DNA of 64,000 bases from assembly GCA_013407085.1 (NCBI GenBank), contig JACCGJ010025883.1, positions 1-64,000 of the forward strand. The letters run 5' to 3'. Each line of letters begins with the position of its first letter. Within the stretch, counting starts at the first letter, position 1. The notes under the pieces are model-generated. The model saw nothing but the letters and a program-made list of their open reading frames with translations, had not been told where the DNA came from and did not search any database. Made by a program: the position numbers and the translations under genes. Shown here one piece after another: positions 1 to 58,400 of the stretch. Source of the DNA: Atriophallophorus winterbourni. Taxonomy: Eukaryota; Platyhelminthes; Trematoda; Plagiorchiida; Microphallidae.

Positions 1-860
1 CAGTATGCTGCGGTTAGCACGGTCAAAAGCTTTAGGCATATCCAAGTTACAAGCATGGATAGGGTATCCATTATCAACAGAATGTCTATATCAATACTGT
101 CAGAATCGTAGTTACCGTGCCCGATATAATGCGACAGAGGTCGTTGATTTTGTTCGCATATCATGCATTCGCATCATTGTAAAATTGAGCGACCTTGACA
201 ATTGAATCGCACGACAGCAATCAACATTTAGTCCAAATTTTTCGTCTTTCTGTGCCTAGTGTTCAGCAGTAGCTGACGGAATTGGCCCCACCCACTAGAC
301 AAGATATTCGTACAGCTCACTGAATGTTTGCCTTGATCTCAAGAAGCCTGTATATGTTGGATACTTGATCGTAAAAACGCCTTTTATTCGGCAATGGGCG
401 TGCGTCTCGAGCATATTCGTTCATATTATGTGAGTAACAATCACCCCCTCACGTACGTTATCTGCTAGACCATAATCATTTTGTCTGAGGCTGGTGTGAT
501 TTTTTCAGAAGCTAGCAGAATCATACGCTTTTATTCATCGTGAAACCCTAGTATTCACATTCACATGGAGAAAATCATGGACTTTTATCGCTCAAATTGA
601 AATATCAAGACATTTAGATTTGTTCGTCTTTTGTTTAAGTGGTCCATGTTTCACGTGCAATTAATACCATTATTCTTAAAATTGGACAAAAGGGCCGTCC
701 GTAGTCGGGTACAAAAGGACAAGAGCAGTAGCCCAGTTGACTCGTGGTAACAATCGTTGTCGAAATCGGCTACTGCAAATCAACGCCTGTAATCGGACGG
801 CGAGCTCAATCAGAAACTCAGATCAAAACTATTCTCATGTGGGATGAAACACCCACGAAT
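1..860. other. No gene recognised
   Basis: Contains one small plus-strand frame (5-205) with no similarity I recognise and otherwise AT-rich sequence without repeats of the local families. It lies downstream of the REV7 poly(A) signal. Confidence 0.4.
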
Positions 861-899
861 AGCAAAGCAAATACGATGAAAGCCACCGCGATAGAATTC

Positions 900-985
900 G
901 TAGCTGTTTAAGACTTGCCCCTCCCCAAGGCAGTTAAGCATTCCGGTGTAATGCTCTTCCTGATGATGATGATGATGATGTGATA
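900..985 (+). repeat. SINE-C 3' end with (ATG)n tail
   Basis: Reads gtagctgtttaag, ccctcccca, cagttaagcattc and tgtaatgctcttcc followed by six ATG repeats. 5' truncated. Confidence 0.65.
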
Positions 986-1117
986 GTCGATATAAGCTAC
1001 AAAATAGCTTGTTTCAACTTAGAATAAATGGGATGCATTTCTAGTCCTGTTCGAGGAAAACGCATGCAGAGTTGCTGTCAAATAACACAACACAAATAGC
1101 ATGAGAGTAGAGAATCG

Positions 1118-1123
1118 TTTATT
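1118..1123 (-). terminator. Poly(A) signal AATAAA of the REV7-like gene
   Basis: On the minus strand AATAAA occurs about 75 nt after the TAG at 1198, in T-rich and A-rich sequence typical of a short 3' UTR. No other good hexamer lies closer to the stop. Confidence 0.55.
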
Positions 1124-1197
1124 GAAATCACATACAAAAATAAGATTTACAAAGAACGATGTAAAATGCGAGTATGAAACAACTGAAGTTAAAATGG

Positions 1198-1536
1198 CTA
1201 CGGTGGGTCATTTTCGTCGTGCTGAAATAGGATTTGCATCTGCCGTGAGATGATTAAAAGCGGATGCACTAACCTGGACATGTTCATTATCAAACGACTT
1301 GATTGAATGTATGACCGAAGTACACACGCTCGTTTGATCGGCTCGGTGAGCAGGCTGTTTCGACCAAGTAACAGGTCTGGCCTGTAGAGTTTACAAGAAA
1401 ACGACCATGGTAACCAATCACGTGCCTGGGTTGTATTGCACAAAACTTTAGCTATGGAAAGTAATTTTGGACGCATACTATTCTTTACAAAGACCATAAT
1501 TATGGGGATTTTGTGGCTAGTAAAGCTTGAGCTGGG
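1198..1536 (-). CDS. MAD2L2: Probable MAD2L2/REV7 terminal exon
   Basis: A minus-strand frame runs to TAG at 1198-1200. It contains DWLPWSF, which could match the family's DFPWIL, and RLVHPLLIISRQMQILF, which resembles the C-terminal seat-belt strand. Two acceptors keep the required phase 0, with exon starts at 1536 or 1482. The stretch between the two motifs is about 45 residues, where human has about 12, so an unrecognised short intron or real divergence is possible. An AATAAA lies 75 nt past the stop, which supports a true gene end. Confidence 0.5.
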   Translation of the reverse strand, partial: PSSSFTSHKIPIIMVFVKNSMRPKLLSIAKVLCNTTQARDWLPWSFSCKLYRPDLLLGRNSLLTEPIKRACVLRSYIQSSRLIMNMSRLVHPLLIISRQMQILFQHDENDPP

Positions 1537-4500
1537 CTGAAATGCTGACAGAGATAATCTACGGAAAACTATCGTTTGCTTTGGTCGATATATGCATGGT
1601 AGTGAAAATTCATAAACACTATGCTGCTGCGACCAGAAGAATATTTGTGCAGTCCTGGATTCTAGTAACAATTTCGATGAGCGGTGCCCCAAGAAAATAC
1701 ACTAATGTTTGCAAACAACTCTGTGTGAGAGACAATTTTCAAAGTGGGGATAAGTGCTGTAAGGCCTCTGACAACCAAGTCCAGCTTCTGGCCTGCACGA
1801 GTGGCTCCCCGAGCTCGGCGGAACTCATTCTACCGACAGGAGAAGGGGCGAGGGCGTGACTGGCGCACGAAAACCAGTTTGCTTCGGGCAGATGGAGCTC
1901 GTTAGCTTGGGAATGCATTTCATCTAAGGGAAGGAAAACCCTGATTTTCAACCTCCGGTGCCTTGCGGGATACCCGATCGCGGGAAAGGCTTCGGGGGAA
2001 AACCCTGAGGAAAAATCTGGAACGGTCAGTTGCTGCACACCACCTCTTTCTGGCAACTCCCTGCTGCCTTGCAGGTCGCACTTGGTTGGGCCAAGGCTAG
2101 AGAAGCTGACTCGAACAAACGCCGAGTGGTGCTGGGGATGCCGCTTGGTACCCAAATTCCCAAGAATCTTCATTGAAGCCGACTCATCCTCCAGGAGGCG
2201 ATAGTCGCACAAAAGTAAATAAAAGTAAAGTAAGTAAGGCATGAAGGAGATTTTGGTATGGAATACAGTGACATGCAGACCAAGAAGCGATTCTACGAAA
2301 ATGGCACATACCTCATTGAGCTGCACCACGGGCGAGCGAAACTGAACGCGGAATTCCCACGTCGTTTCTGCAAGAAGAGCGAAAGTTTACCATTTGATTT
2401 GCATTGGTAACAATGGAGATGATAGTTTCGATAATTGGAGCATTATTAACATATGACTATGAGCATTTTGAGTATTTACCAATGAGGTCGAAAGCTAGCT
2501 TGCTGAGACTACGAGGTAATTGGAGTGTTTCGCAACATTATTCAGAAAACGTTTACCCTGCTTACACAGCTGCTATCGTCATCAGGTTAAATGACATCAC
2601 TAACAAAACTAATTGGCCGTCTGATCGTCCTACCAGTTGGCCAGACTCATTATTTACTTTTTGCATACGCTTATTGGTTGATAGATGGTAGCGAATGGGA
2701 AGCGTTGGTTGACTGACTACTGTCAAGTACCAAGCTTCATAGAAGATGCGGACACGTCAATTACTACTATTGTCTCGGATGTGCAATCGTGTGGTACTTC
2801 GTGTTGTGCTGCTAACACCGTGCTAAATTGATTGGCCAAAGGTAGTGAGCTGCATGCTGAAACACGCTAGAGTCTCACCACAATTTATATTCCCCCCTCA
2901 TATCTTTCTAGGCCTTGGCAACCTGACAGTATCTTAGCCCACGTGCAGTCTCTGACTGTGCGGCACTTTGCCTGGATCAGGCTTGTGCTTTCATACCATA
3001 CCATTCTTTTGTCTCAATCAAAATGATCAACATTCATTGAGGTTATCCATTTAGAGGCACGTCTTCGTACAGTCAAAAGAAGCACACTTGGTCTCGCTGA
3101 AGGGATAGTAATCTATCGCATACCTGATCAAGCCAACATAATACGGAAGTTCTGAGAACGGATAAATCAATTGAGATGTAGAGTAGCGAATAGTTCACAC
3201 TAGCTCGACCAAACTAACATGTTTCTCACGTGATTAATCGATCATTATTCACAGCCTCATATTTGCGTCGAACTCATTTTCCGAGCGAGCCGTGGTGGTT
3301 GTACAGCGGATAGGACGTTTGACTTTCGATCAAACCGTTCCAGGTTCGAATCCCATGCGGTTGCACATTTCGGGAGCTATGCTTAACCCAGATCCTCACC
3401 GTAGCGTGGTGTAAAATGGTCACTAACAATAGTTGAGACAACCTATCACTCTGTCAAGTGGGTGAAATCCCATCACTCATCACCCAAGACAAGCTAAAAT
3501 AATATAGTTTCAAATCTAATTACAGAAAAGAAATTTATTGGTTCCATTTGTGTAGTTTAATCTGGTGAATGAGTAACTTATAAGTGAATTTAGGTCAAAC
3601 CAGTATATGATATGGCATGAAAGCACAGGCCTCATCCAGGCAAAGTGCGGCACAGTCACACTGCACGTGGGCTAAGATACTGTCAGGTTGCCCAGGCCTA
3701 GACAGATACGAGGAAGAAAAAAGAACAGGAAATGGTAGTGAAACTCCAGCATGCAGCCCACTACCTCTGGCCAATCAATTTTGGTCAAACCAGTCAGGGT
3801 TAAAGTGTGCTGAACATAGTCTTGATACGATGTATTGTGGTGATTTCATAACAATGGGAAACAACGTTAATCCTGAGGCTAGAATCTAACTAAAGCGTAA
3901 GAACTGGTTTATCAACTCACCGAAATCAATAACCGGGAAGACAGTCTCCAGCAAATTTATGCGAAACAGACAAACGGCAAAATATTCTCGAAGTACGCTC
4001 AGATGTACATCGTGGCTAGAACAATAGAAGCACATTCACGTTGCAAAAATGGTGTTGAATGCAAAAGATCACAAATACGAGTGGAAGCGGAAGAAACAAC
4101 GAGGCAAAGTATAAACATTCCAAACCATGAAATCTGACCTTAGTGTATGGACAAATAGTTTCACAGATAGCGTAGATTGAAAAATGTGTGAATAGGCGGA
4201 TGAGTTCGAAATACGTGTTGAATGGAGCGCAGGAAAAGAATGGCAAGGGTGAAATGTTTCAGCAGACGGTCAGTCAATTTCAGGAAATGTATGCACAGTG
4301 ATCAAAACTGGCGAAGTGAAAACATAAACCTGACCCTTTAACACACCAACATATGCAAAGCTTTCGCTAGAGTTATAAGAAAATTGAGCGGAGAAAATGA
4401 TGTAATACATTCGCATGTACATAATGAAGTAAAATACTGAAAAATTTGCCTAGGGAGAAATACCATGATGCGAGCAAGGGATTAACTTTGTATTGAATGC

Positions 4501-7500
4501 GTTCAAGCGTCTGATGAATGCGGAATCATCCACCGGAGGGAGATGTTCTGGTAAAGAAACTAAGAACACAATACACGCGGGTTGTCCCAAAGTTAGAATT
4601 TGGCATCACAAATGCGGCTGAGTTTGTTGTGCAATTAATGTATTCCAGCAAGCTAGAATCGTTGGATGAACTTCACAGAGTACAACAGAACAGTTCCCTC
4701 GTAGACAAAGATTTGAAAATCTCATCTGGTTTAGCGCCCTGACGGTAGATTTTATAGCCTCGACATCCTTTTTACGCTGCTGACACGGTGATTTTAAACA
4801 TCTTGGCGTAAAACATCCGCTTAAACAAAATTCTCAAGAGGGACGTGAATCGTTACGTATGTTATATTAAGCTTCGCCTATTAGGCGGTGGCATTCTGCA
4901 GTATTTTTGAGCAGAGGGAAGCTTGCTACCTAAAGAACCGATTGTAAATGGAGCAGAAGGCCGTTGGTTCAAAAATTTTATCACCGTCCAAATTTCGATA
5001 GCACAAGCTCAAGCATCGATCGACGCAATTATCGTCACTCATGGCGAGTTTGATAAATGCATTTCAGTGCATGGCACTGAGGCACACATGAAATTGGGCC
5101 GGAGAACAGAACCATGTCATAACCGACGACCAAAAGTAAACCAAGATTGGTCAGGTTTCAGGCAGGCTTAAAACGCAACTTGTCCATAAGTGTAGAATTA
5201 GATGCATGTTTAATCTCCCGATAGGTTGCTCTATTAACCATTGAAGCCAGTTTCAAATAAGATTGGCACAACCATCATCAATCCGTGTAGCTAAGACGAG
5301 CGGTCAGATAAGTTAAAGAGAGTTTTAAGAGAACTCACGCCACGTGCAGTTACCGCTCACCGCCCGACTCATAATATTGGAAATCATCATGTGGACGCGA
5401 CAGGATAAACGCCAACAGCATTACGCTGGCTTTGCGAATCTGAGTTAAAATGGTCTCTAAAGTAGTATTGAGGAGCTAGTGGAGGAAGGCCGCATGTTAG
5501 AGACGGAATTGCATCGGTAGCATGGACCGAATGCTTAACTGTCACACAACCATGAAAAAGTAAAATCCTAATAGATGGGGAAGGGCTGGACAAATAGCAA
5601 CGTATGCTATAGAAGAGTAGGCACGAACAAACAAACAAGGCCGCATGTGGTGCTAGAACTCGTAAAACCGCCGAATTTCAAGACAAGAAGATTCCAAAAT
5701 TTAAGCTGTATTCAAGCGGAGGAAAGAGAGAAAAAGATAGTTGCAAGGTAGTTGTCCTACCGACGTCGCCTATTTGTCCACCGAAAATTGACTGAATGCA
5801 GGCTCCGCTCGTGTGGGTACCCCTTCCCAGTGTGAACTGTACTCACTGCATAGATTACTAGCCCTAGGAATTTATTGTGTCACGGCTATATGCAAAGTAA
5901 TCAATAAGTAAATACTACCGACGTAATGCTGTCCACAATGATGAAGCGAGCGATTCGAATGCTAAGTTATTTCTATCTGATCAGTAAAATTGTTGGGAAA
6001 AAGAAGGAAAATGTTGCACATGATTAATGATTTCATGAAAGTAGTATAGTAGATAAAACAGTGTTTAATTTAACCTTCCTGTATCTATACAGCTTTGGTG
6101 TAACGTTGGAATATCAGAAGTTTCTTAGAGCGTAAAATCATAGTTTTTCAACGTAAATAGCATCCTTATCACCAAAATGACAATAATTGAATAAACCTGA
6201 TCCAGTAGGTCGTTTAACATTGTCTATTATTTAAGGATCGTAGAACAGATCACGTCGCTTCGGTCGTTTAAGTAAGGACGTCAGGAAACGTTAATGCCGT
6301 TAGTATGGAAATGAGTAAAATAAGAAGTTGGTTAGCGTCATGGGTTTACCATCGGCGTAATTAAATCTTATCTATCTAGATAAAGACGTCATTTTTTGAT
6401 GGGGAAGACTCCGTACTGTTTAACAAAAACTACAATGGTTGACGAATTATTACCTCAAAAATTCCAGTGAGAAATGACCGAATTGTATGGTCAAACTTTC
6501 CACCGGTTTGTCGCAGGCGTTGCTATGAACGCGGAACACCACTATGGAAATCTCTTTCAATTGTGTTAGCCACGGACGCAACGATTCAATACACTCGGCG
6601 ATGTAACGTCGCACCTCGGGATTCGAGCAGACCTGAAAAAAATTCACGAACCACTAGTGAGAAAATTGGTGAACAGATATCACCGGATCGAGAAATGACG
6701 ATGCGCCTAACTAAGCGACTGTTTTTCTAACGGAGTAACGAAGAAACCTTTTTTTGATACGCATCAGTAAAGGAATCCAAGAAACTAGGAGAAACAATCA
6801 TGCTGATTTCAGATCAACGACCCACAAAGTGTATGCGGACTGAATTCCATCATGATTCTGCCGCATATGAAGCACCAATTTCAGTTTTTTATTCATTGAA
6901 AACCGGTCATCAACGAGGCCACAAGTTCACTGATGATGCGCGATAGATGCCGTGATGTACACGTAAGCACATTATAATTACTACTGCTAAATGTAAATTA
7001 TGGACGGACACAAAGTGACTGAACAGCACCTGTAGACTTACCATAAACTATACTTCTGTGCTGTGCGGCTAACATCGAGCTAAATTGATTGGCCACCGGT
7101 AGTGAGCTGCAACTGAAACACGCTGAAGTCTCACTTTCATTTTCTTTCTCAGATCTGTCCAGGCCTGGGCAATCTGACAGTATCTTAGCCCACGTGAAGT
7201 CTCTTACTATGCGGCGCTTTGCGTGGATCAGGCTTTTGATTTCATACATACATACATACCATAAACTAATTTATTTTATTGAGTTGCAATGTCGCACTTT
7301 TTGTCGTGTATGACGAAATGTAAGGAATTTTAAAATACTCAAAATGTAATAACTGATGATACCGGAATTCAAGGATTTTTGTTAAAAAGTGAATGCATGA
7401 GATTTACCAGAGATTAGATTTATCTGTCTCTTCATCGGATCAATGGGATTCCCAGGGTGATTGAACTGTAATGCAGCTGTATTATATATTTTGGTGCTCT

Positions 7501-9450
7501 CACCCCTATTCGTTACACACCACAACCGGTTTCTGGCTGTTTGCTGTTGGGTTAACAAAGTAATTCTTGTATGCGACTGTTAAATAGAGTTCTTACAAAG
7601 AACCGTGAAGTTCAAATAGAGAATCGCAAATTAATTCCTGGCCGAGTGCTCGAGGCACATTTAAATGAAAAACTTTCTTCTTTATGCCTATTACAATTTT
7701 TGGCATTAATGAGCTCACCAATTCCCAAAACTCAAAATAATTTACAATCGCTGGACACAGGGAGTTCAGCAAATATCATGCGCATATCAAGTACCCGATA
7801 AAAGCATAATTGAAGTAATCATTAAGCAAAAACATTTATCTGAATCAATCGGAAATATCTATTCAAACGCAGGATCTGAGATGTCACAACTTCCTCTCAC
7901 TCTTCGTTAACATCCTTTCAATTCATTTCTTTCAGGGCAGTTTTAAACATAAAGCCGCCCACACAAACACACGTGTTCCAAACTATCCAGAAAACGTTTA
8001 CCGTGATTTATCCGTGTTAATGTGTGTGTAGTATGTATGTATGAAATCACAAGCCTGATCCAGGCAAAGTGCCGCACAGTCGAGGACTGCACATGGGCTA
8101 AAATAATGTCAGGTTGCCCCGGCCTAGACAGATATTGGAAAGGAAAATAGCAATGGCATTAAGACTCCAGCGAGTATTCGCATACAGTTCACTTTTTAGC
8201 ACAGTGTGAGCTGTGTAGCTTGGAAGTGCTCTACGACTGCACATCCGTGCAGAGTGTTGTTTGTTTGTACCGCCGAAGCGAATACACCATGCATAGTGTT
8301 AGTGAGCCATAAGGTAGCTCACATTGCAGCTAGCGGTATTAACCGTTAGCAGGTGTCTCATTTTCTGACAACTCCAAGCATTATTGATTAATACAAACAT
8401 AATCGGTTTAGTTTTAATACAACCATAACAAAATAAACGAATGGTCACGGCCTTCTACACGTTTGAACAGCACTATTTTCCTAATCAGATGAAAAAAAGT
8501 TGTTGTTGTCCTACATTGGTTGATATCGGCAATGGATGTACATCATCACAAGTGATTATGTGATTCGTAAGGAACAATCTCTCCAGCAGCGCTCACACAA
8601 ACACGCGGTACTCGGTAGCATTTGTAGGCAGTCGGGTTCAGCAGCCGACAGCAGTAACGGTTTTTCTTCTGCTTCAAAGTGACGTTTCATACTGTGGCTC
8701 AAAAATGAGCGGTCGAGATCAGGTTCTTCCAAATGCATAGGGTTAATGTCACGAACTTCGATCATTTTGCGATTCCAGTCGATTAAGATTTTTGTGATGC
8801 GGGGTTGTGGAGCCCGCTGAATTAGTGAAGGGCCACCATTACTTGGTTTCGATAGCGATACGCGCCCTTTTAATTAAACCTTTCAGTGTATACTTCCAAA
8901 CATTTATTATCAAGGTTGCTGCAACGATGCTTTTAATGTGTTCTAATTAAGAAGATAGATGTTTCGTTTATCGATATCATGTTGTTTCAATATACTTTCG
9001 AGGACTACTAAGCGAAGCTTTGACCAAATCGATGTTAGTGATAGTATATGAACAAGGAAAGCAGAAAACCTAAACTCCAAAGTGAAAACAATGTAAAGCT
9101 AGCATAGTTAATCGATAATTTGGAAAAATGGTTTTATAGCACCCAGATTTAAAATATTCACTGGAACAATAAATGAAGCCACGACAACATATCAAGATAT
9201 TTATTTACAGAACAGGTAAAGAATGAACTACCGAAAAACACTTCGCAGTAAATGAACATTCAGTTACCTGAATTGTCGATCCGTAAATAGAAAACGTGGT
9301 GCAAGAATTGGAAGGATAAACATTACGTCGACACAAATAATTGTGCACGACTGCCGCAATAAAGTCACACAGGGAATCACAGATTTCAGTAGAGTTAACG
9401 GAATCTCTACGAAGAAGTTGAGCTGTTGAGCCAAAAAGTCGAAAAGACAT
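1198..9450 (-). CDS. MAD2L2: MAD2L2/REV7 homologue, HORMA-domain protein (five-exon model)
   Basis: REV7 is the HORMA-domain adaptor of DNA polymerase zeta and of shieldin, acting in translesion synthesis and double-strand-break choice. I found it by joining minus-strand exons: 9450-9268 (61 codons, phase 0 end), 6632-6454 (phase 2 end), 4015-3921 (phase 1 end), 2367-2312 (phase 0 end) and a terminal exon ending with TAG at 1198. Each junction has GT-AG ends and the phases agree, giving 171 residues before the terminal exon. Matches to the family run in order: LCDF and RRNVYP in exon 1, NPEVRRYI and KPVESLTIQF in exon 2, LREYFAVCLFRINLLETVFPVI in two halves of exon 3's helix region, TWEFRVQF in exon 4. 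The C-terminal part is divergent and its exon start is unsettled, so the total length (about 265-283 residues against 211 in human) is tentative. Introns hold SINE-A, SINE-B and LINE fragments. The gene starts 30 nt after ATG12. Confidence 0.87.
1744..2237 (+). repeat. SINE-B copy in REV7 intron 4
   Basis: Matches the 13077-13619 element over nearly its whole length but lacks its first 45 nt. It ends in taaataaaagtaaag-type tail. A 196-residue minus-strand frame here is a by-product of the repeat, since the same frame recurs in the other copy. Confidence 0.8.
2312..2367 (-). CDS. MAD2L2: MAD2L2/REV7 exon 4
   Basis: A 56-nt exon sits between acceptor ctcttcttgcag and donor gtatgt. Two bases complete the codon from exon 3, then 18 codons read TTWEFRVQFRSPVVQLNE, corresponding to the family's FTVLVHTRE strand. 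It ends in phase 0. The next intron holds a SINE-B copy. Confidence 0.78.
2776..3004 (+). repeat. SINE-A copy, plus orientation
   Basis: Near full length: begins cggatgtgcaatcgt, contains attgattggcca and gtagtgagctgcatgc, and ends in the hairpin gcctggatcaggc then cttgtgctttcatacc. Lies in REV7 intron 3. Confidence 0.85.
3287..3510 (+). repeat. tRNA-like sequence with B box, probable tRNA-derived SINE
   Basis: A 70-nt head shows a perfect B-box (GGTTCGAATCC at 3343-3353) and an anticodon-like hairpin (tttgactttcgatcaaa, loop would read TTC). Acceptor and T stems do not close well, and about 150 nt of unrelated sequence follows. That fits a tRNA-derived SINE better than a functional tRNA gene. 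Confidence 0.5.
3609..3783 (-). repeat. SINE-A copy, minus, 5' truncated
   Basis: Plus strand shows the tail side first (gatatggcatgaaagcaca), then aggcaaagtgcgg and the body to ggccaatcaatttt. Loses the first 60 nt of the family. Confidence 0.8.
3921..4015 (-). CDS. MAD2L2: MAD2L2/REV7 exon 3
   Basis: This 95-nt exon lies between an acceptor tattgttctag and a strong donor gtgagt. Taking one base to finish the exon 2 codon, it encodes LSVLREYFAVCLFRINLL followed by ETVFPVID. This aligns with the family's long helix (EQLLRAFILKI-type) and the following segment. It leaves one base, exactly what exon 4 needs. It was too short to stand out as an open frame and was found through splice signals and phase. 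Confidence 0.82.
4016..5180. other. REV7 intron 2 sequence with two unexplained small frames
   Basis: Plus-strand frames at 4518-4742 and 4923-5171 (74 and 82 codons) match nothing I know and lack splice or promoter context. Probably chance or old repeat. Confidence 0.3.
5513..5640 (-). repeat. SINE-C copy, minus, partial
   Basis: Minus strand reads tactcttctatag, cccttccccatct, aggattttactttttcatgg and gttaagcattcggt, as at 47614-47798. The (ATG)n tail is absent. Confidence 0.65.
5797..5950 (+). repeat. SINE-C copy, degenerate
   Basis: Matches in accccttcccagt, ctgcatagattactagccc and taccgacgtaatgctgtcca, then a short gatgatg-like tail. Much diverged. Confidence 0.5.
5951..6453. other. 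REV7 intron 2 remainder, nothing seen
   Basis: AT-rich; I translated parts of the minus strand looking for more REV7 sequence and found none. Confidence 0.4.
6454..6632 (-). CDS. MAD2L2: MAD2L2/REV7 exon 2
   Basis: Acceptor ttttttcag before 6632 and donor gtaata after 6454 bound 179 nt. The peptide contains NPEVRRYIAECIESLRPWL, then KEISIVVF and DKPVESLTIQF. This matches the REV7 pattern of a helix, a hydrophobic beta strand and the PVEKFVF-type strand. It enters in phase 0 as exon 1 requires and leaves two bases for exon 3. Confidence 0.9.
7050..7260 (+). repeat. SINE-A copy, plus, REV7 intron 1
   Basis: Body from tacttctgtgctgtgcggc through ggccaccggtagtgagctgc to tttgcgtggatcaggc, with a clear (CATA)n tail at the right end. 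Confidence 0.85.
8031..8251 (-). repeat. SINE-A copy, minus, REV7 intron 1
   Basis: Plus strand starts with the tail (gtatgtatgtatg), then cacaagcctgatccaggc, and runs to cacatccgtgca. Full length with internal loss. Confidence 0.85.
8498..8820 (-). repeat. LINE-Y 3' end with (AAC)n tail, REV7 intron 1
   Basis: Minus strand ends in acaacaacaac. The body shares aatggatgtacatc, gaggaacaatctct-type and gagcggtcgagatcagg stretches with 25335-25620 and 55743-55978. Non-coding 3' UTR part of that LINE. Confidence 0.65.
9200..9205 (-). other. AATAAA within REV7 intron 1
   Basis: A minus-strand AATAAA lies about 280 nt past the ATG12 stop and inside intron 1 of the REV7 model. It could serve as an ATG12 poly(A) site if the transcript is not spliced, so I record it as an alternative to the operon reading. 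Confidence 0.3.
9268..9450 (-). CDS. MAD2L2: MAD2L2/REV7 exon 1 (start codon exon)
   Basis: The exon reads from an ATG at 9450 to CAG followed by gtaact at 9267. A splice acceptor (T-rich tract ending in TTTTTGCAG) sits at 9455-9456, so the ATG is only 4 nt inside the exon. The peptide has the N-terminal HORMA helix (TEICDSLCDFIAAVVHNYLC) followed by RRNVYP, where the family has a VREVYP-like motif. An upstream in-frame ATG at 9468 would fall before the acceptor, so 9450 is preferred. Confidence 0.88.
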
Positions 9451-9480
9451 GAAGCTGCAAAAAGGCAAATTGTCAGCAAA
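9451..9480 (-). promoter_or_regulatory. 30-nt intercistronic region with splice acceptor between ATG12 and REV7
   Basis: Between the ATG12 stop (TAA at 9481-9483) and the REV7-like ATG (9450) there are only 30 nt on the minus strand. They consist of a pyrimidine-rich run ending in TTTTTGCAG (AG at 9455-9456) and then CTTC before the ATG. There is no room for a promoter. In flatworms with spliced-leader trans-splicing, downstream cistrons of operons begin this way. A single dicistronic mRNA would be the alternative. Confidence 0.6.
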
Positions 9481-9789
9481 TTAGCCCCAGGCTTGAGTCA
9501 TGCAATAATGTATTACAAGTTTGCCTTCTGCATTGAAACAGTCATACAACGGTCCAATTTCAGCATCCATGGGGGGAGCGAAACATTGGTTGACGTAAAC
9601 AAAAAGGGACTCATTGGCAGGACACCGTAAATAGTCACGAAAAAATTTTACAACCCAACCAATAGTGTGGTTGCGACCAACTGTCCAAGTTTTTTTCCGC
9701 ATCATGGGTGCGTTGCCGGTCGCTTTCAGAAGTAAAGTTACCTTCTCCTCTGGCGTGGAGGTCGTTGGGGAACTGGATGCATCATCCAT
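9481..9789 (-). CDS. ATG12: ATG12, ubiquitin-like autophagy conjugation protein
   Basis: ATG12 is the ubiquitin-fold modifier that ATG7 and ATG10 conjugate to ATG5; the conjugate with ATG16 directs ATG8/LC3 lipidation on the growing autophagosome. The frame is an uninterrupted 102 residues. It starts with a short Ser/Thr-rich tail, continues with the first beta strand KVTLLLKATGNAPMM, and carries the family signature FVYVNQCFAPPMDAEIG near residues 63-79 and YDCF just after. It ends in QAWG, so the C-terminal glycine that forms the isopeptide bond is the last residue. It is shorter than the human protein only in the disordered N-terminus. The minus-strand sequence 28 nt before the ATG holds a CTAAC and a T-rich tract ending in AG (acceptor 9818-9819), suggesting an upstream cis or trans splice. 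The stop codon lies 30 nt from the start of the next gene, a REV7 homologue on the same strand. Identity is firm; expression is not shown by sequence. Confidence 0.97.
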   Translation of the reverse strand: MDDASSSPTTSTPEEKVTLLLKATGNAPMMRKKTWTVGRNHTIGWVVKFFRDYLRCPANESLFVYVNQCFAPPMDAEIGPLYDCFNAEGKLVIHYCMTQAWG

Positions 9790-9957
9790 TTAGAAAATCA
9801 GAATAATCGAACAAGATCTAAAAACGTTAGGGTATACCATTTGGAAAAATATGAACAAATAAACATAAATAATTGAAATTAGTAGTAAAAATAGATGAAG
9901 AAGTAAAATATATTGTAATTAGGAATGTTTAAATAGGTAACAATGTAAAACCGGAAG

Positions 9958-10192
9958 TATGATGTATAAAAGTACAAGCTTGGTCCAGGCAAAGTGCCAC
10001 ATAGCCAAGGATTGTACGTTGGCGATATTACTGTCAGGTTGCCCAGGCCTAGACGGATATGAGAAATGGAGAATACAGATGGTAGTGAGACTCCAGCGTG
10101 TTTCAGCATGCAGCTCACTACCCGTGGCAAATCAATTTAGCACGATGTTAGCCACACAGCACAGAAGTATTGCATGATTGCACATCCGTGCA
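9958..10192 (-). repeat. SINE-A copy, minus
   Basis: From agtacaagcttggtccaggc to gcacatccgtgca, essentially complete. Lies just upstream of ATG12. Confidence 0.85.
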
Positions 10193-10269
10193 TTGTTCCT
10201 TGATTGAAGTGACCCCGTTTTAAAGCGAGTCAACAAACGAAAATCGTCCGCATGTATATGTGGAGCAAC

Positions 10270-10459
10270 GTATGTATGTGCGTATGAGATCACAAGCCTG
10301 GATACAGGCAAAGTGCCGCACAGTCATGGACCACACATGGGCCAATATATTGTCAGATATTAGAAAGAAAAATGTTAGTGAGATTCCAGCATGCATCTCA
10401 GCACGAGTGGTAAATCAATTTAGCATGGTGTTAGCCGCACAGCACAGAAATACTGCATG
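10270..10459 (-). repeat. SINE-A copy, minus, internally shortened
   Basis: Tail tatgtatgtgcgtatg, then cacaagcctggatacaggc and the body to acagaaatactgcatg. About 30 nt are missing after the gtcagat point. Confidence 0.8.
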
Positions 10460-10582
10460 AGATACTGTCAGGTTGCCCAGGCCAAGACAAACTTGAGATA
10501 GAAAATAGAAGTGAGACTCTCGTGTGTTTCAGCATGCAGCTCATTACCGGCGGTCAATCAATTTAGCACGATTGCACAGCCG
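10460..10582 (-). repeat. SINE-A copy, minus, 3' part missing
   Basis: Directly abuts the previous copy. Begins gatactgtcaggttgcccagg and runs to gattgcacagccgt. Confidence 0.75.
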
Positions 10583-10650
10583 TAAAAACGGAAGACTCGA
10601 ATAAGCTAATTAGACTCACGATATGGTAATTATGTAGCACTATTTTATGG

Positions 10651-11290
10651 TATAGGCCATGGTGCAATTGGTACACGGGTTGGCATCTTGGCTGCCTGCT
10701 GACATGCCGTGCTGACTTGACGAATAGATCAATATCTGCGTCCAAAACAGGCCAATAAGCGAAACTGCGAACGATCGACTTCATGCGTTGAATGCCTGGG
10801 TGCACATTGTGGAATTGTCGAAGGACACGATCGCGTAGATTCTTTGGAAAAACAACGCGATCATTGGACATTAGGCACTCGTCAATAATTGAAAACGATT
10901 CACGTCGTTGGTAGAATTGTGAGAGTTCCCCAGCAGGCGTAACTTTCGGCCAACCACAGTGAGTATAGGTGATTGCTTGCAACAAAGTATCGTCTGATTG
11001 CGTATATTGTTTAATATCCTCAGCTTTGACAGGCAATCCCCGCACTGCGTCGTCGAACTGTCGCTGCATAGCTTGCTCGATGGAGACGCATGCAATGACT
11101 GTATCCTCGTTTGGGTGACCTCGAACCGGGATTAGGCGGGACAGCGCGTCTGCTTGACCAAAATCTTCGGAACGGCGATATTGTATATCGAAATCGTATC
11201 CCAATAGTGTGAGAGACCATCGTTGTAACCGGTTTGCATAATGTGTTGGTATACCTTTATTCGAGCCGAATATCAAAATCAAAGGTTTGT
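10651..11290 (-). pseudogene. Inverted duplicate of gypsy RNase H/integrase segment
   Basis: On minus this reads [49 protein letters not shown] and SFAYWPVLDADIDLFVKS. It is nearly identical to the plus-strand copy at about 12340-12960. Homology stops at about 10651 on the left and about 11290 at the join with the plus-strand RT. Small indels and a frame change near 10710 separate it from its partner. Confidence 0.85.
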
Positions 11291-14200
11291 GGTCGAACCT
11301 GAACTTCAAAGGCTACAAGATCAAGGTGTTCTGGTTCCCGAAACGTACTCTGCCTGGGCAGCACCCATCGTTGTCGTTAAAAAACGAATGGATCCATCCG
11401 AATCTGCGCCGATTTTTCAACTGGTTTGAATGCCGTTTTGGAAACTCACCATAATTAATTACCGGTCGCAGATGATTTGTTCATAATGCTCAATGGTATT
11501 TCGTACTTCGCAAAGCTCGACTTATCTGACGCCTATCTACAGATCGAAGTTGCACCTGACTAACGAGAACTGCTAACGATTAATACCCACTAGGGATTGT
11601 TCCAGTATCTGCGTCTTCCTTTTGGTGTGAAGACTGCTCCAACCGTTTTCCAGCAACTGATGGATACCATTATGTCTGGCCTCCCGGGTGTGGCCGCATA
11701 CCTGGACGATCTACTCATTGTCGGTTCCTCTGAAGAATAACTCGATGGTCGCATCAACGGATCACTGAAAGTGGTTTACGCCTTTGTCTCGAGAAATGCC
11801 AGTTCTATATGAAATCAATAAAATACCTTGGTTTCATTTTCGATCAAAGTCGACGTCACCCTGACCCTGGCAACATACAATCAATCCAGCAGATGCCGGA
11901 CCCAAAAGATATTGCATCACTGCGATCATTGCTTGGTTTAATCAGTTATTACAGTGCATTCCTGCCATCACTCCACAATGTGCGTCCACCGCTCAATCAA
12001 CTTCTTCAACAAGATCTCCCATGGAATTGGTCACGAGAATGCGAAACAGCTTTTATGAAGCTAAAATCACTGTTAACATCAAACATGTTACTGACGTACT
12101 ACGATTCCAAGCTGCCGATCGTCGTGGCATCCGATGCATCTAGATAAGGTGTGGGTGCTGTAATTCTTTACAAATTTCTCGATGGAAACGAGAAGGCGAT
12201 TATGCGTGCTTCACGATCATTGACTCCTGCCGAACGCAACTATGGTCAAATCGAAAAAGAAGCATTATCTCTAATCTTCGCGGTCAAACGATTCCACAAG
12301 TTGATCTATGGCCGTCACTTTACGTTGCTAACCGACCACAAGCCATTGATTTCGATATTCGGCACATTATGCAAACCAGTTACAACGATGGTCTCTCACA
12401 CTATTGGGATACGATTTCGATATACAATATCGCCGTTCCGAAGATTTTGGTCAAGCAGACGCGCTGTCCCACCTAATCCCGGTTCGAGATCAACCAGACG
12501 AGGATACAGTCATTGCATGCGTCTCCATCGAGCAAGCTATGCAGCGACAATTCGACGACGCAGTGCGGGGATTGCCTGTCAAAGCTGAGGACATTAAACA
12601 ATATACGCAATCAGACGAAACTTTGTTGCAAGCAATCACCTATACTCACTGTGGTTGGTCGAAAGTTACGCCTGCTGGGGAACTCTCACAATTCTACCAA
12701 AGACGTGAATCGCTTTTAATTATTGACGAGTGCCTAATGTCCAATGATCGCGTTGTTTTTCCAAAGAATCTACGCGATCGTGTCCTTCGACAATTCCACA
12801 ATGTGCACCCAGGCATTCAACGCATGAAGTCGATCGTTCGCAGTTTCGCTTATTGGCCTGTTATGGACGCAGATATTGATCTATTCGTCAAGTCATGCCG
12901 TCAATGTCAGCAGGCAGCCAAGGTGCCAACCCGTGTACCAATTGCACCATGGCCTACACCAGAAAAACTGTGGCAACGAATTCATATCGATTTTGCTGGT
13001 CCAATAAATGGGGTCATGTACCTCGTCGTGGTCGATTCTTACTCGAAATGGCCCGAAATAATCGAGATGTCATCTGGCTCCAAAGGTTAGCATAACCGGG
13101 GGTGGCAGTGGGGATAAGCTCCCACTGTTTATAAAATGCTCTCATATGGCACGCGTCTCAAATAGCCTCTAACAACCAAGTCCAGCTTCTGGCCTGCACG
13201 AGTGGCTCCCCGAGCCCGGCGGAACTGCTTCTACCAACAGGAGAAGGGGCGAAGACGAGTGACTGGTGCCTGAAAACCAGTTTGCTTCGGGCAGATGGAG
13301 CTCGTTAGCATGGGAGGACATTTCATCTAAGGGAAGGAAAATACTGATTTTAAACCTCCGCTGCCTTACGGGATACCCGATCGCGGGAAAGGCTTCGGGA
13401 GAAAACCCTGAGGAAAAACCTGGAACAGAGTCTGGTAGACCACCTCTTTCTGGTAACTGCCTGCTGCTTTGCAGGTCGCACTTGGTTGTGCAAAGGCTAG
13501 AGAAGCTGACTCGAATAAACGCCGAGTGGTGCTGGGGACGCCGCTTTGTACCCAATTTCCCAAGAATCTTCATTGAAGCCGACTCATCCTCCAAGAGGAG
13601 ATAGTCGCACAAAAGATAAAGATGTCATCTGCAACATCCAGCAACACTATCAATACAATGCGTCGTTTGTTTAGTCAGTATGGATTGCCAGAAACTCTCG
13701 TGTCCGATAATGGCTCGTAATTTACGTCGGACTTTTTCGCCGAATTTTGCCGGCAGAACAACTTGTCACATCTACGGTCGCCGCCTTACCATTTTCAGTC
13801 AAATGGCCAGGCCGAACGCTTCGTCGACACATTCAAGCGTGCTCTTCTGAAATCACGTGCGGAGGGGACATCTGTCGATAGTCTTCAACATTTTCTGCTG
13901 GTTTACAGAACTACGCCGAACGATACGTTGCCCAGCCGCAAAACCCCCGCCGAAGCACTCATGTGCAGGAAGCTACGCACATGGAACAATGCTATGCTGC
14001 CCAAGTCAACCAATCTGCCGATCAATCAGAATCAACAGTCGTGCTTCGAACCAGGAACTGCCGTCCACGTACGCGACTACAGAACATCAAGTCCGCCGTA
14101 GATCAATGGTAACACCATCCGTCGCAGAGGCAGTGTAATGTTCGATGACGAAATTGGAAAAGGTGTCATGACACGACACAGAAATCAGTTATGCCTGAGA

Positions 14201-25334: not shown

Positions 25335-26690
25335 ATGTTGTTGTTAGCCTCCGTCGGTCGATGTCAACCATGGATGTACATCACAATCACATGAATTTCA
25401 TGTCTTACAGCTTTTCGAATGACTAAACAGTCCGATTCGGGAGGAACAATCTCTCCCGCAGCGCTTGCGACGATAGTCAGATCTCTGTTGTATTGCATCA
25501 GTTGCACAACAGCGGCGTTATCTGTGTTCAGCAGCCAAGAGCTGTATCTGCTCCTCCTCAGCTTGCAGACGACGCTTTACACAATGCCTCTAAACTGAGC
25601 GGTCAAGATCAAGTTTTTCTCAGCTCGCGGGGTCAATATCAAGAGCTTTCATATCTCTTCTGCAAACATATATTTACCGCAAGTGCGGTCTGCCCAGTGG
25701 TCAACTTCCTAACTGCAACTCACCACAGAGTAGATCTTTCGGGAAACAACCATTTTACATTCCATAGACATGACCAATCCACCGCAGGCGGAGCTGACGT
25801 AATAGGGTGAACATGCTCTGTAGATCAGCTTTTGACAGCACTTCGGCGTTTATCAATCTGTCCATCCACGATATGTTCAAAATACGACGGATGCTTCGTA
25901 GATGGAAAGCATTCAGCTTCCGTTCGTGTCTTACGTAGGTGGTCCAGGTTTCACTGCCGTACAGTAAAGCATTCAGTACGCACGCGCTGCATACCATCAT
26001 CTTTGTCTTTACAGTCAGCTTGCGGTTACGCCAAACACAAGAGTTCAATCGGGAAAAAATGACAGCTACTCTGCCAATCCACTTATCAATCTACGTGTCT
26101 AGCGATGGTTAGACCAACATATGCAAAATGATGTACTTGTTCAAGCTGACAGTTTCCAACAGTGATGATTGATGACGATACAGTTCCTTGACCAAGGACT
26201 TTGGTTTTGCTCATGCTCATTGTTAGACCAAAGTCTTTGCATGCCGACTAAAAAAGTCCATTAGCGAATGTAGGTTCTCTTGGGAGTGAGCAATAAAGGC
26301 TGCATCGTCGGCAAACAATAGGTCACGGATTAGCACATCCGGTGTTTTGGTTTGTGCTCTCAACCGGTTCAGGTTAAAAAGCTTACCATTACTTCGTGCG
26401 TATATAAATGCCTTCTGTTCTTGTGCTAAAAGCGTGATTCAGAAGCACAGTGACGAGAATGCCGAACAGCGTGGAAGCAAGAACACACCCTTGTTTTACG
26501 CTCCGGCGAATTTCAAATGCTTCTGAACTGCAACCGTTAAAATTGACCAAACCTTTCCTGAGTAGAACGAAATAACGAGTCTGAGCAGCCTTGGGGGCAG
26601 CCTATCAGATCAAGCATTTTGAAAAGACCCTCCCTGCTAACGTAGTCGAATGCCTTAGTTAAATCAATATAAACAGGTATAGTCTAAAGC
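25335..26690 (-). pseudogene. LINE-Y, RT and 3' end, (AAC)n tail
   Basis: Minus strand: IDLTKAFDYVSREGLFKML (about 26640-26685), FADDAAFIAHSQENLHSL, WRNRKLTVKTKMMVCSACV, LNALLYGSETWTTYVRHERK and LRLRWIGHVYGM (about 25760). These are RT and the C-terminal domain of an RTE/related LINE. The 3' UTR extends to an acaacaac tail at 25335. Frames are broken. Confidence 0.8.
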
Positions 26691-55400: not shown

Positions 55401-58400
55401 TACATTGTCGATCGGTGGCAATTGCACACTGTCAGTGTGTTCTCCATTTAGCATCTTCTCTTCTAATTCAAGACGACGCTTTGCACTATACCTCCGAACG
55501 AGCGGTCAGAGCAAGTTCCTCCCAAATCACAATGTCGTAATCCAAAGTTTTCATATCTTAGAAACGTCTGTGTACCACAAGTGCAATCTGACCAATGGTT
55601 GACTCGCTGATTTCAACTCTCTGTAGGTTATATTTTTTTGGAAAATGACCGTTTTTGTCTTCTAATCACGACGCATTCAGTGTACATGATGCTGTTGCGA
55701 TAGAGTTAGCGTGATGTGTTAAACATCTTTAGAGTATGCTATGTTGTTGTTGTTGTTGTTGGCCTCCTTCGGTCGATGTTGACCATGGATGTACATCACA
55801 ATCGCATGAATTTTCATGTTCTACAGCTTTTTGAATGACCAAAAAGTCCGATTCGGGAGGAACAATCTCTCCCGCAGCGCTGGCAACGATAGTCAGAACT
55901 CGGTTGTATTGCATCAGTTGCACGCCGGTGGCGTGATCTGCGTTCAGCAGCCAAGAGCTGTATCTGCTCCTCCCCAGCGAATTAATATTATCCTACTTTG
56001 TTGTATATGCAATATGATTTATGCCGTAGTGTGCTGTATAAATTAATATATTCTCCGTGACTATGACATGCTGCTCTCCATCATCATCAAATACAATATT
56101 ACATCGATATCGCCTACCCGGGTGCCGCGCAATCTTGACAGAATTTCGCTTACTAAAAAGCTGCCAATGTGCATTCTGTTTGTACTATCTGGTGCAACTT
56201 TATAATAAGGTAATTATCCATATATACAAGCGTTCCGATCATGTCCAAGAAACGGTCTAACATTGAATAGCTTGACCGTGTCAATCTTATCTAGCAATAC
56301 CTTGAAAGTTCAACTTTTTTAACCAGCGATCCATCATTTCAACAGAAACTGATCTTTTTTACCTCTTCGTTCAGCGCAGACATCACCAAATCAGTTTTAG
56401 GCTGTGTATACCATATATTATTCCTCTCTCAAGTACTGTACAAGTTATTATATCTCTGATGCCGTATGGTCTAGGTCGTCTGACCTTAATGAAGTCGGTG
56501 GCCTATCGGAATCGGCTTTTGCTAACTCTTCTGATAAACCGTTCTTGAACCACTTTCTACCGCAAGGGAACCACCATCAACTCGATGTTTTTTCGTATTT
56601 TTCATTATACGTTGTTCTACTTTCAGTATTTCTCTCAACTCACTCTGCCCTTAGGTGTCGCGGTTGGCGTCTGGGTCCCGCCAAGTATTGGTATGACCAA
56701 TTAGGCATCCCTCTTGATGCGGATATCACAACGTGGACTGATTGGCGCCGTCCAACTTGCGGTCTCGTCAGTTCCAACCACGCTGATTCTGCGTCGGTTA
56801 ACCCGGGATCCGTTGGCGGTGATAGTGCACTCGCTCAAGATGATCAGCGTTCCATCGATCCGCTTGATGAAACGAAGAGAGAGCAGAATTTACCTGTGAA
56901 AAGTGAGTACTATTTATGGCTATTTTTCTGTTATTCTTTGGTTTTCTCAGTGAGCGATATTGTGCTGCCCATGCCAGTAAATTTTCGCAAATGAGTCATT
57001 TATTTTCATACCTATTGTCTCATCTGGATTGTCGCTTGAATGTTCGCCATTCGACTAATGATTCATCAAAATATATTGACAGTAATCGAATTTAAATTTA
57101 TGAAGGTTCTATCATCAGCACGGTGCATTGTTATAGAATGGTAAGGTATTTGGTTCTGGGGTTGTCATAGCCGGGGTGGTTTTATGATAAGCTCTCATTT
57201 CCAAAAATAATCTAACAACACGCGTCTCTGACATCCAAGTCCAACTCCTTGCCTACGCGTGTGGTTCTCTTTGACCTGGCGGAACTTTTTCTACTAACAT
57301 ACGAAGAAACGAAGGTGAGTGACTGGCGTCTCAAAACCAGTTTGCTTCTCATTTTGATCCTCCGCTGCCTTGTGGCTATATCCAATCATGTAGGAGTCAA
57401 GCTTGCGGAAAATTTCGGAGCCCAAGTCCCGTTAGGCTTTTAGAAGTTGTACTCAGCTTCGTCCTGGCAACTTTTCCGACGGCATGGTTGTCCAAACGTA
57501 TCAGCCTAGCTGTTCCTTTGGCTCCAGTGGTGTCGTGAAGAGGGTACACTTGCTGCGTGTGCAACATCTAGTAAGGTATTATAAAATCACAAGCCTAAAC
57601 TCAGGCAAAGAACCGCACAGTCATAGTCTGCACTTGAGCTAAGCATAGACCTATACAGATATAAGAGAATGGAAATAATAGTGAGACTAGCTTGTTTCCG
57701 CGTCCAGCTCAGTGCCTGTGGCAAATTGATTTAGCACGGTGTCAGCTGCACAGCAACGAAGTACAGTACAATGGCACATCTTGTGAAACATTTAGCCCCA
57801 TCTTTTCAGAATTTTTAACATGTCATAGTTGTATGGCAGTTAGTCACTTATTACTTGCTACTGGTGTAATGCTGTCCATGATGATAATGATGTAAAGGCT
57901 AGTAAAGGGCTAACTCGGAAGCTATCACTTGACTGCTTAGTCTGATGCTGAGGTCCAACTCAATCGGGCTATAATCCCAACGCACCACGGAGAATCCTGC
58001 GTCTGAGTTTTCACCTGTACTGTCGACTAGCTCTTACTATAAATAGGTAACCATATTTTTATGGTGGTGTGTATCGGTCTCTGTGCACAAAATGCCATAA
58101 TTTCCTATTTTCGCCTGCCAGAGTCTCAGCTCTCGCTTACAGCCAAATTCAGACACCCGGTATCGGGCAAATTACACAAAAACTGTTTGTCCCACCAGCG
58201 AACTGAGATTTGCCACTTTTACTCGTGTCGCTATTGTTCGGATCAATTTCGTATTTTTCTAACGTGGATTCCTGGCCTGAATTCTCCCATCTACTTTTAG
58301 TGCAATTAGTCACTTCTAGCTTTGTTCGCTTGCTGTTGACACTGCTCTTCAATCCAGATTTTAACTCACCTTCCCTGGTGTAGCTTACCTCGTTTTCTGC

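Follow-up and report, generated by a model that had tools for sequence, protein, structure and literature searches.

A candidate trans-spliced two-gene unit of ATG12 and REV7 in the fluke Atriophallophorus winterbourni

ATG12 and REV7 lie head to tail, 30 nt apart, on the minus strand of positions 1-64,000 of contig JACCGJ010025883.1 (assembly GCA_013407085.1) of Atriophallophorus winterbourni, the 64,000-nt stretch that was analysed and is called the window here. Is so close a pair a single transcription unit and, if so, how does REV7 obtain an mRNA of its own? The best reading, to which we give a probability of roughly two in three, is that the two genes form a trematode-inherited transcription unit that is resolved as an operon by spliced-leader (SL) trans-splicing. 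The unit itself, already proposed in the initial annotation, is well supported by the 30-nt spacing and by gene models of Paragonimus heterotremus and Heterobilharzia americana in which the two proteins are joined. Addition of a spliced leader at the acceptor ending at 9455 is plausible, given its match to a published motif (PMC12582326).

The ATG12 reading frame runs from 9789 to 9481, with its TAA at 9483-9481, and the REV7 ATG is at 9450; these positions, and that of the acceptor, were confirmed on the sequence as first annotated. The intercistronic gap (9451..9480, minus strand) reads TTTGCTGACAATTTGCCTTTTTGCAGCTTC from 9480 to 9451 and has 21 pyrimidines among its 30 nt. Its sole AG ends at 9455, so that an exon would start at 9454, and this AG closes the acceptor TTTTTGCAG. 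With TTGCAG at 9460-9455, this is a UUNYAG-type acceptor before the second gene and conforms to UUNCAG, the form favoured at trans-splice sites in non-schistosomatid trematodes (PMC12582326). The spacing is also well inside the published rules for candidate operons, which call for genes on the same strand separated by at most 300 bases (PMC12582326) or at most 200 bp (PMC5832876). Together with the recurrence of the pair in other flukes, described below, the acceptor motif and the tight spacing make a trans-spliced operon the best reading.

We infer a single promoter upstream of ATG12 (above 9817), from which a precursor would extend through ATG12 into REV7. A fluke spliced leader would join the 9455 acceptor to give a capped REV7 mRNA starting at 9454; this mRNA would be cis-spliced across exons 2-5 and end at an AATAAA at 1123 (1118..1123, minus strand), a probable poly(A) signal with a T+G-rich stretch downstream. 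The ATG12 mRNA would terminate separately. A second acceptor-like site, CCCTAACGTTTTTAG (9818..9832, minus strand), lies upstream of ATG12, and an exon beginning at 9817 would leave 28 nt before the ATG12 ATG; ATG12 itself may thus be cis- or trans-spliced. About 110 nt of unrepeated sequence lie above this site, up to 9945, where DNA with further copies in the window begins.

The pairing recurs in other flukes, and this is harder to ascribe to chance than the acceptor motif. A search with ATG12 returned 10 proteins and a joint ATG12-REV7 profile returned 18, of which 16 were examined as sequences. Two of the 16 are ATG12-REV7 chimeras; single-gene fluke matches to ATG12 or to REV7 are uninformative on the neighbouring gene. 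In P0003, annotated as ATG12 in P. heterotremus, ATG12 residues 1-101 lead into REV7 exon 2, and the REV7 part (residues 102-163) is identical at 28 of 62 positions to exon 2 of the window and at 60 of 62 to the REV7 protein of Paragonimus kellicotti, P0012 (counted by eye). P0011, from the schistosomatid H. americana, consists of ATG12 residues 1-69, seven further residues and REV7 from Met1; about 35 residues of P0017, the separate REV7 model of this species, are missing from it and about 10 others are present. Heterobilharzia has a separate ATG12 model as well (P0002); the contigs listed for P0002 and P0017 are both 159,726,811 long, and the two models are very likely on one contig. Fusion of operonic genes into single models is a documented by-product of operons in flatworm annotations (PMC12582326), which makes the ATG12/REV7 pair look old within flukes. 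To judge from the fused models, then, the gene order would be shared by P. heterotremus and H. americana.

The chimeras may also be taken at face value. With a shared promoter, a 5' untranslated region (UTR) exon above ATG12, or a donor within ATG12, could be joined in cis to the 9455 acceptor or to REV7 exon 2, and REV7 mRNAs would then be splice variants lacking ATG12 wholly or in part and carrying no spliced leader. P0003 and P0011 are joins of this kind. The position at which the P. heterotremus chimera exits ATG12 is donor-like in the window (GTAATACA, 9509..9516, minus strand, a putative donor after codon 91, EGKL), and a join from 9516 to exon 2 at 6632 would be in frame, both sides being in phase 0. 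Cis and trans splicing, moreover, often use the same acceptors in flatworms (PMC12582326). However, the two chimeras differ in the codon at which ATG12 is left and in the place of entry into REV7, much as gene-finder noise would, and both lose the C-terminal glycine of ATG12. In nearly every species surveyed, cis-splicing was also at its lowest at the acceptors of downstream operon genes (PMC12582326). We consider it unlikely that cis-splicing of this kind accounts for the locus. The join of codon 91 to exon 2 is the same as that in the P. heterotremus annotation, and its product would have neither REV7 exon 1 nor the glycine of ATG12.

Several observations weigh against the trans-spliced operon. 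As a model, the P0011 chimera may be rare or wrong, in view of the separate Heterobilharzia models and of its missing and additional residues. Operon similarity among trematodes was reported to be confined to Schistosoma, for which the authors partly blame low recovery, and the cistrons of all 45 S. mansoni pairs examined were separated by 5 bp or more, with a median of 99 (PMC12582326). Nearly all reported fluke leaders end in AUG (PMC12582326), and of 187 SL-bearing clusters in Echinococcus, 143 were predicted to be full length and to start at the SL ATG (PMC3510090). An AUG at the end of the leader would here sit in a different frame from the REV7 ATG, at an offset of 7 nt, and would open an overlapping frame of 16 codons, so that ribosomes would need to bypass the leader AUG; an in-frame leader AUG, a common but not defining feature, is thus lacking on the assumption that the leader ends in AUG. 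The acceptor is no richer in pyrimidines than the cis acceptors of REV7, with 11 of 17 positions before the gap AG vs. 11-13 of 17 in those. The motif also occurs by chance: the probability of meeting it in a random 30-nt stretch of the minus strand is 0.031 for TTNCAG and 0.055 for TTNYAG (0.83 for any AG). Since 3-5% of such stretches contain it, the acceptor is suggestive rather than decisive, and modest evidence when taken alone.

The same frequency of 3-5% would suit two independent genes, with a REV7 promoter inside ATG12 or the gap and an acceptor motif that arose by chance in pyrimidine-rich sequence. The REV7 ATG has a T at -3, a weak start context, and with the leader AUG out of frame the start seems untuned to a leader. 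However, the promoter would need to sit in coding sequence, and the pairing of the two genes recurs in the fused models from Paragonimus and Heterobilharzia. We therefore regard independence of the two genes as improbable.

A further difficulty concerns the 3' end of ATG12. The initial annotation was right that the gap has no room for a normal 3' UTR; a consequence that went unnoticed is that the nearest AATAAA available to ATG12 lies inside REV7 intron 1. No AATAAA occurs in the 26 nt that run from the ATG12 stop through the acceptor, and this cuts against the operon in its simple form. The candidate ATG12 poly(A) signal (9200..9205, minus strand) is the sole AATAAA or ATTAAA on this strand between 9481 and 9100, that is, within 380 nt past the ATG12 stop. 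With 0.19 hexamers of this type expected per 276 nt of the minus strand, its occurrence at 9205 is unremarkable in itself. In T content the sequence downstream of it is in the top 4% of the 92 AATAAA sites of the window, and in T+G content in the top 10%; variant hexamers also occur (AATACA at 9514 and TATAAA at 9138).

If ATG12 did use the AATAAA at 9205, its 3' UTR would include REV7 exon 1 and one mRNA would exclude the other. With no poly(A) hexamer in the gap and the nearest AATAAA in intron 1, one precursor may give either the ATG12 or the REV7 mRNA, but not both; under this hypothesis, ATG12 may end in a 3' region shared with REV7 exon 1, and the two mRNAs may be alternatives. Choice of the poly(A) site in REV7 intron 1 would produce the ATG12 mRNA and destroy the REV7 message, and leader addition at 9454 would produce the REV7 mRNA and deprive ATG12 of its poly(A) site. 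The stronger proposal, that ATG12 and REV7 form an old trematode unit in which the two genes are opposed by a single RNA-processing decision, is speculative, and we think it rather unlikely.

The two genes are in the same frame, separated only by the TAA and ten sense codons, and this frame is open from 9480 to 9205. REV7 might accordingly be translated from a mature bicistronic mRNA, by termination-reinitiation or by read-through. A shared frame, however, has a one in three chance of occurring, reinitiation past a reading frame of 102 codons is usually inefficient, and an ATG12 fused to REV7 would be without a free glycine. We regard such an mRNA as very unlikely, and the trans-spliced operon is still the reading we prefer.

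The identity of ATG12 (9481..9789, minus strand), a single exon of 102 amino acids ending in TQAWG, is clear. It matches Pfam APG12 at 3.1e-30 with the whole profile covered (1-87 of 87), matches human ATG12 (4gdk) at 3.3e-30 and is 67% identical to Paragonimus westermani P0001 by BLASTP (74% in the multiple alignment). The APG12 domain and the C-terminal glycine (in the window, sequence end AWG) are common to all three, with no notable difference. In a tree of 13 rows, from which P0009, P0010, P0011, P0012, P0017 and P0018 of the 18 proteins were omitted and for which P0003 was trimmed to its ATG12 part, the window protein falls inside a nine-row fluke group (100/99); by path length it is nearest to Paragonimus, a placement without firm support. 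A single exon in a repeat-rich region could be a retrocopy that landed beside REV7, and the window holds no second ATG12 with which to compare it (tblastn, E ≤ 0.01). However, the ATG12 frame is intact, the terminal glycine is present and the same partner gene is found in the Paragonimus and Heterobilharzia fused models, and we would be greatly surprised if ATG12 had arisen in this way.

REV7 is longer than was initially annotated. Position 9268, given as its end, is the end of exon 1 (donor GTAACT), and the gene extends to 1208 as five exons from 9450 onwards, with GT-AG introns, consistent phases and a product of 228 amino acids. Exon 1 (9268..9450, 61 codons; all exons are on the minus strand) is 45% identical to P0012 and 44% to P0017 by tblastn, exon 2 (6454..6632) was likewise matched by tblastn, and exon 3 (3921..4015) is 53% identical to P0012 and 34% to P0017. 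P0012 matches exons 1-3 by tblastn, as does P0017 (E 8e-8, 6e-12 and 6e-5). Exon 4 (2312..2367) has GT-AG sites and a fitting phase, and exon 5 (1208..1381), which includes the stop, has IKSF in common with P0017 in the alignment; the tblastn matches of P0017 to these two exons (E 0.25 and 1.7, respectively) are weak and within the range of chance matches elsewhere in the window. An exon 3 at 4547-4464 was rejected because its phase did not fit, P0012 and P0017 indicating 4015-3921 instead. Some early REV7 searches and the first row of the joint ATG12-REV7 profile were built with this wrong exon, and none of the 112 candidates in a protein search with the early model reached E ≤ 0.01. The three minus-strand frames of 1-9267 gave no match to Pfam.

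Exon 1 alone was weak evidence for REV7, its best PDB chain being MAD2B at E 0.027 and no Pfam family being found. The identification became firm only once the four further exons downstream had been found, matched by the two other fluke REV7 proteins (exons 4 and 5 by P0017 alone, and weakly). A profile of three fluke REV7 proteins reached MAD2B at 6.5e-13 (positions 13-164) and, along a shorter alignment, MAD2A at 2.7e-9; by this measure the HORMA protein of the window is nearer to REV7/MAD2B than it is to MAD2. The assignment depends on the profile, since a single-sequence search with the early model containing the wrong exon 3 slightly favoured MAD2A (1.8e-7 vs. 3.3e-7 for MAD2B). A structure model of P0017, of low confidence (mean pLDDT 56), matches MAD2 and REV7 structures alike. 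Among the 32 chains listed in the profile search, 26 are MAD2A, MAD2B/REV7 or MAD2, one is a polymerase zeta subunit and five are unrelated; none is named ATG13 or ATG101, and an autophagy HORMA protein was set aside. The HORMA fold is common to the fluke proteins and REV7/MAD2B/MAD2L2, but the fluke proteins are strongly diverged, and all four tested, one of them the chimera, scored below the cutoff of Pfam HORMA.

An open stretch of 93 codons in REV7 intron 1 (8559-8837, minus strand) was considered as an exon, then dismissed as a decayed repeat. Diverged relatives of it occur in the window at 55847-55981 and, interrupted by stops, at 25431-25661, and its similarity to DNA topoisomerase 3-beta is faint and not significant (E 0.65). 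Four repeats lie in REV7 introns (2765-3022, 3594-3781, 7050-7263 and 8024-8193) and two upstream of ATG12 (9945-10192 and 10258-10572); these six segments are 170-315 nt long, and 10-14 overlapping self-matches within the window were counted for each. The frames at 10563-11312 (minus strand) and 11734-14101 (plus strand) resemble retrotransposon polymerases, gypsy-like by eye with no search made, and have near-identical stretches in common on opposite strands. A further repeat segment at 1764-2219 resembles, by eye, a 151-amino-acid open frame at 13169-13624. At gathering scores nothing in the window matched Rfam, the presence of a fluke SL family in Rfam not having been checked, and a scan of the window found no tRNA.

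The literature searched (main texts and titles, with supplementary operon lists beyond its scope) held no description of the ATG12/REV7 pair, in agreement with the initial annotation, which knew of none. Autophagy goes unmentioned in the main texts of three operon studies, as do ATG12, Mad2, Rev7 and HORMA in PMC12582326, Atg12 and mad2 in PMC5832876, and Mad2 and the mitotic spindle in PMC3254664. The survey in PMC12582326 included P. heterotremus, and the pair may therefore stand unnamed in its supplementary tables. The functional link between autophagy and translesion synthesis that was first suggested for the pair found no support; the partners in schistosome polycistrons were reported to show no functional pattern (PMC3254664). 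If the operon is real, it would account for the fused ATG12 proteins in databases. Operon pairs were little conserved across trematodes outside Schistosoma in a survey of 24 species, but some, such as the enolase operon, are (PMC12582326), and a pair common to a schistosomatid, Paragonimus and the fluke studied here would be a useful case for the age of operons.

Trans-spliced operons are a known class in flatworms, of which ATG12/REV7 is probably a new member. In S. mansoni, 65 dicistrons and one tricistron have been reported (PMC5832876), and a trematode example is that of cytochrome b-c1 subunit 7 and enolase (PMC12582326). Genes on the same strand, short spacing, a UUNYAG-type acceptor before the downstream gene and fused models are found there as here. 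The spliced leader, however, is only a candidate here, where the 26 nt from stop to acceptor contain no poly(A) hexamer. The tight geometry would test whether flatworms have operons of the abutting or overlapping type, a matter unsettled for most of the surveyed species for lack of 3' UTR data (PMC12582326). The SL1-type operons of Caenorhabditis elegans and those of Ciona, which have no intercistronic sequence (PMC12582326), likewise leave no room for a 3' UTR and a spacer; in them, as would be needed here, the poly(A) site has to adjoin the downstream acceptor or overlap with it. In an abutting operon the upstream poly(A) site is at the trans-splice site; in the window the nearest AATAAA, at 9205, lies past the acceptor in REV7 intron 1, and the predicted mRNAs would overlap rather than abut.

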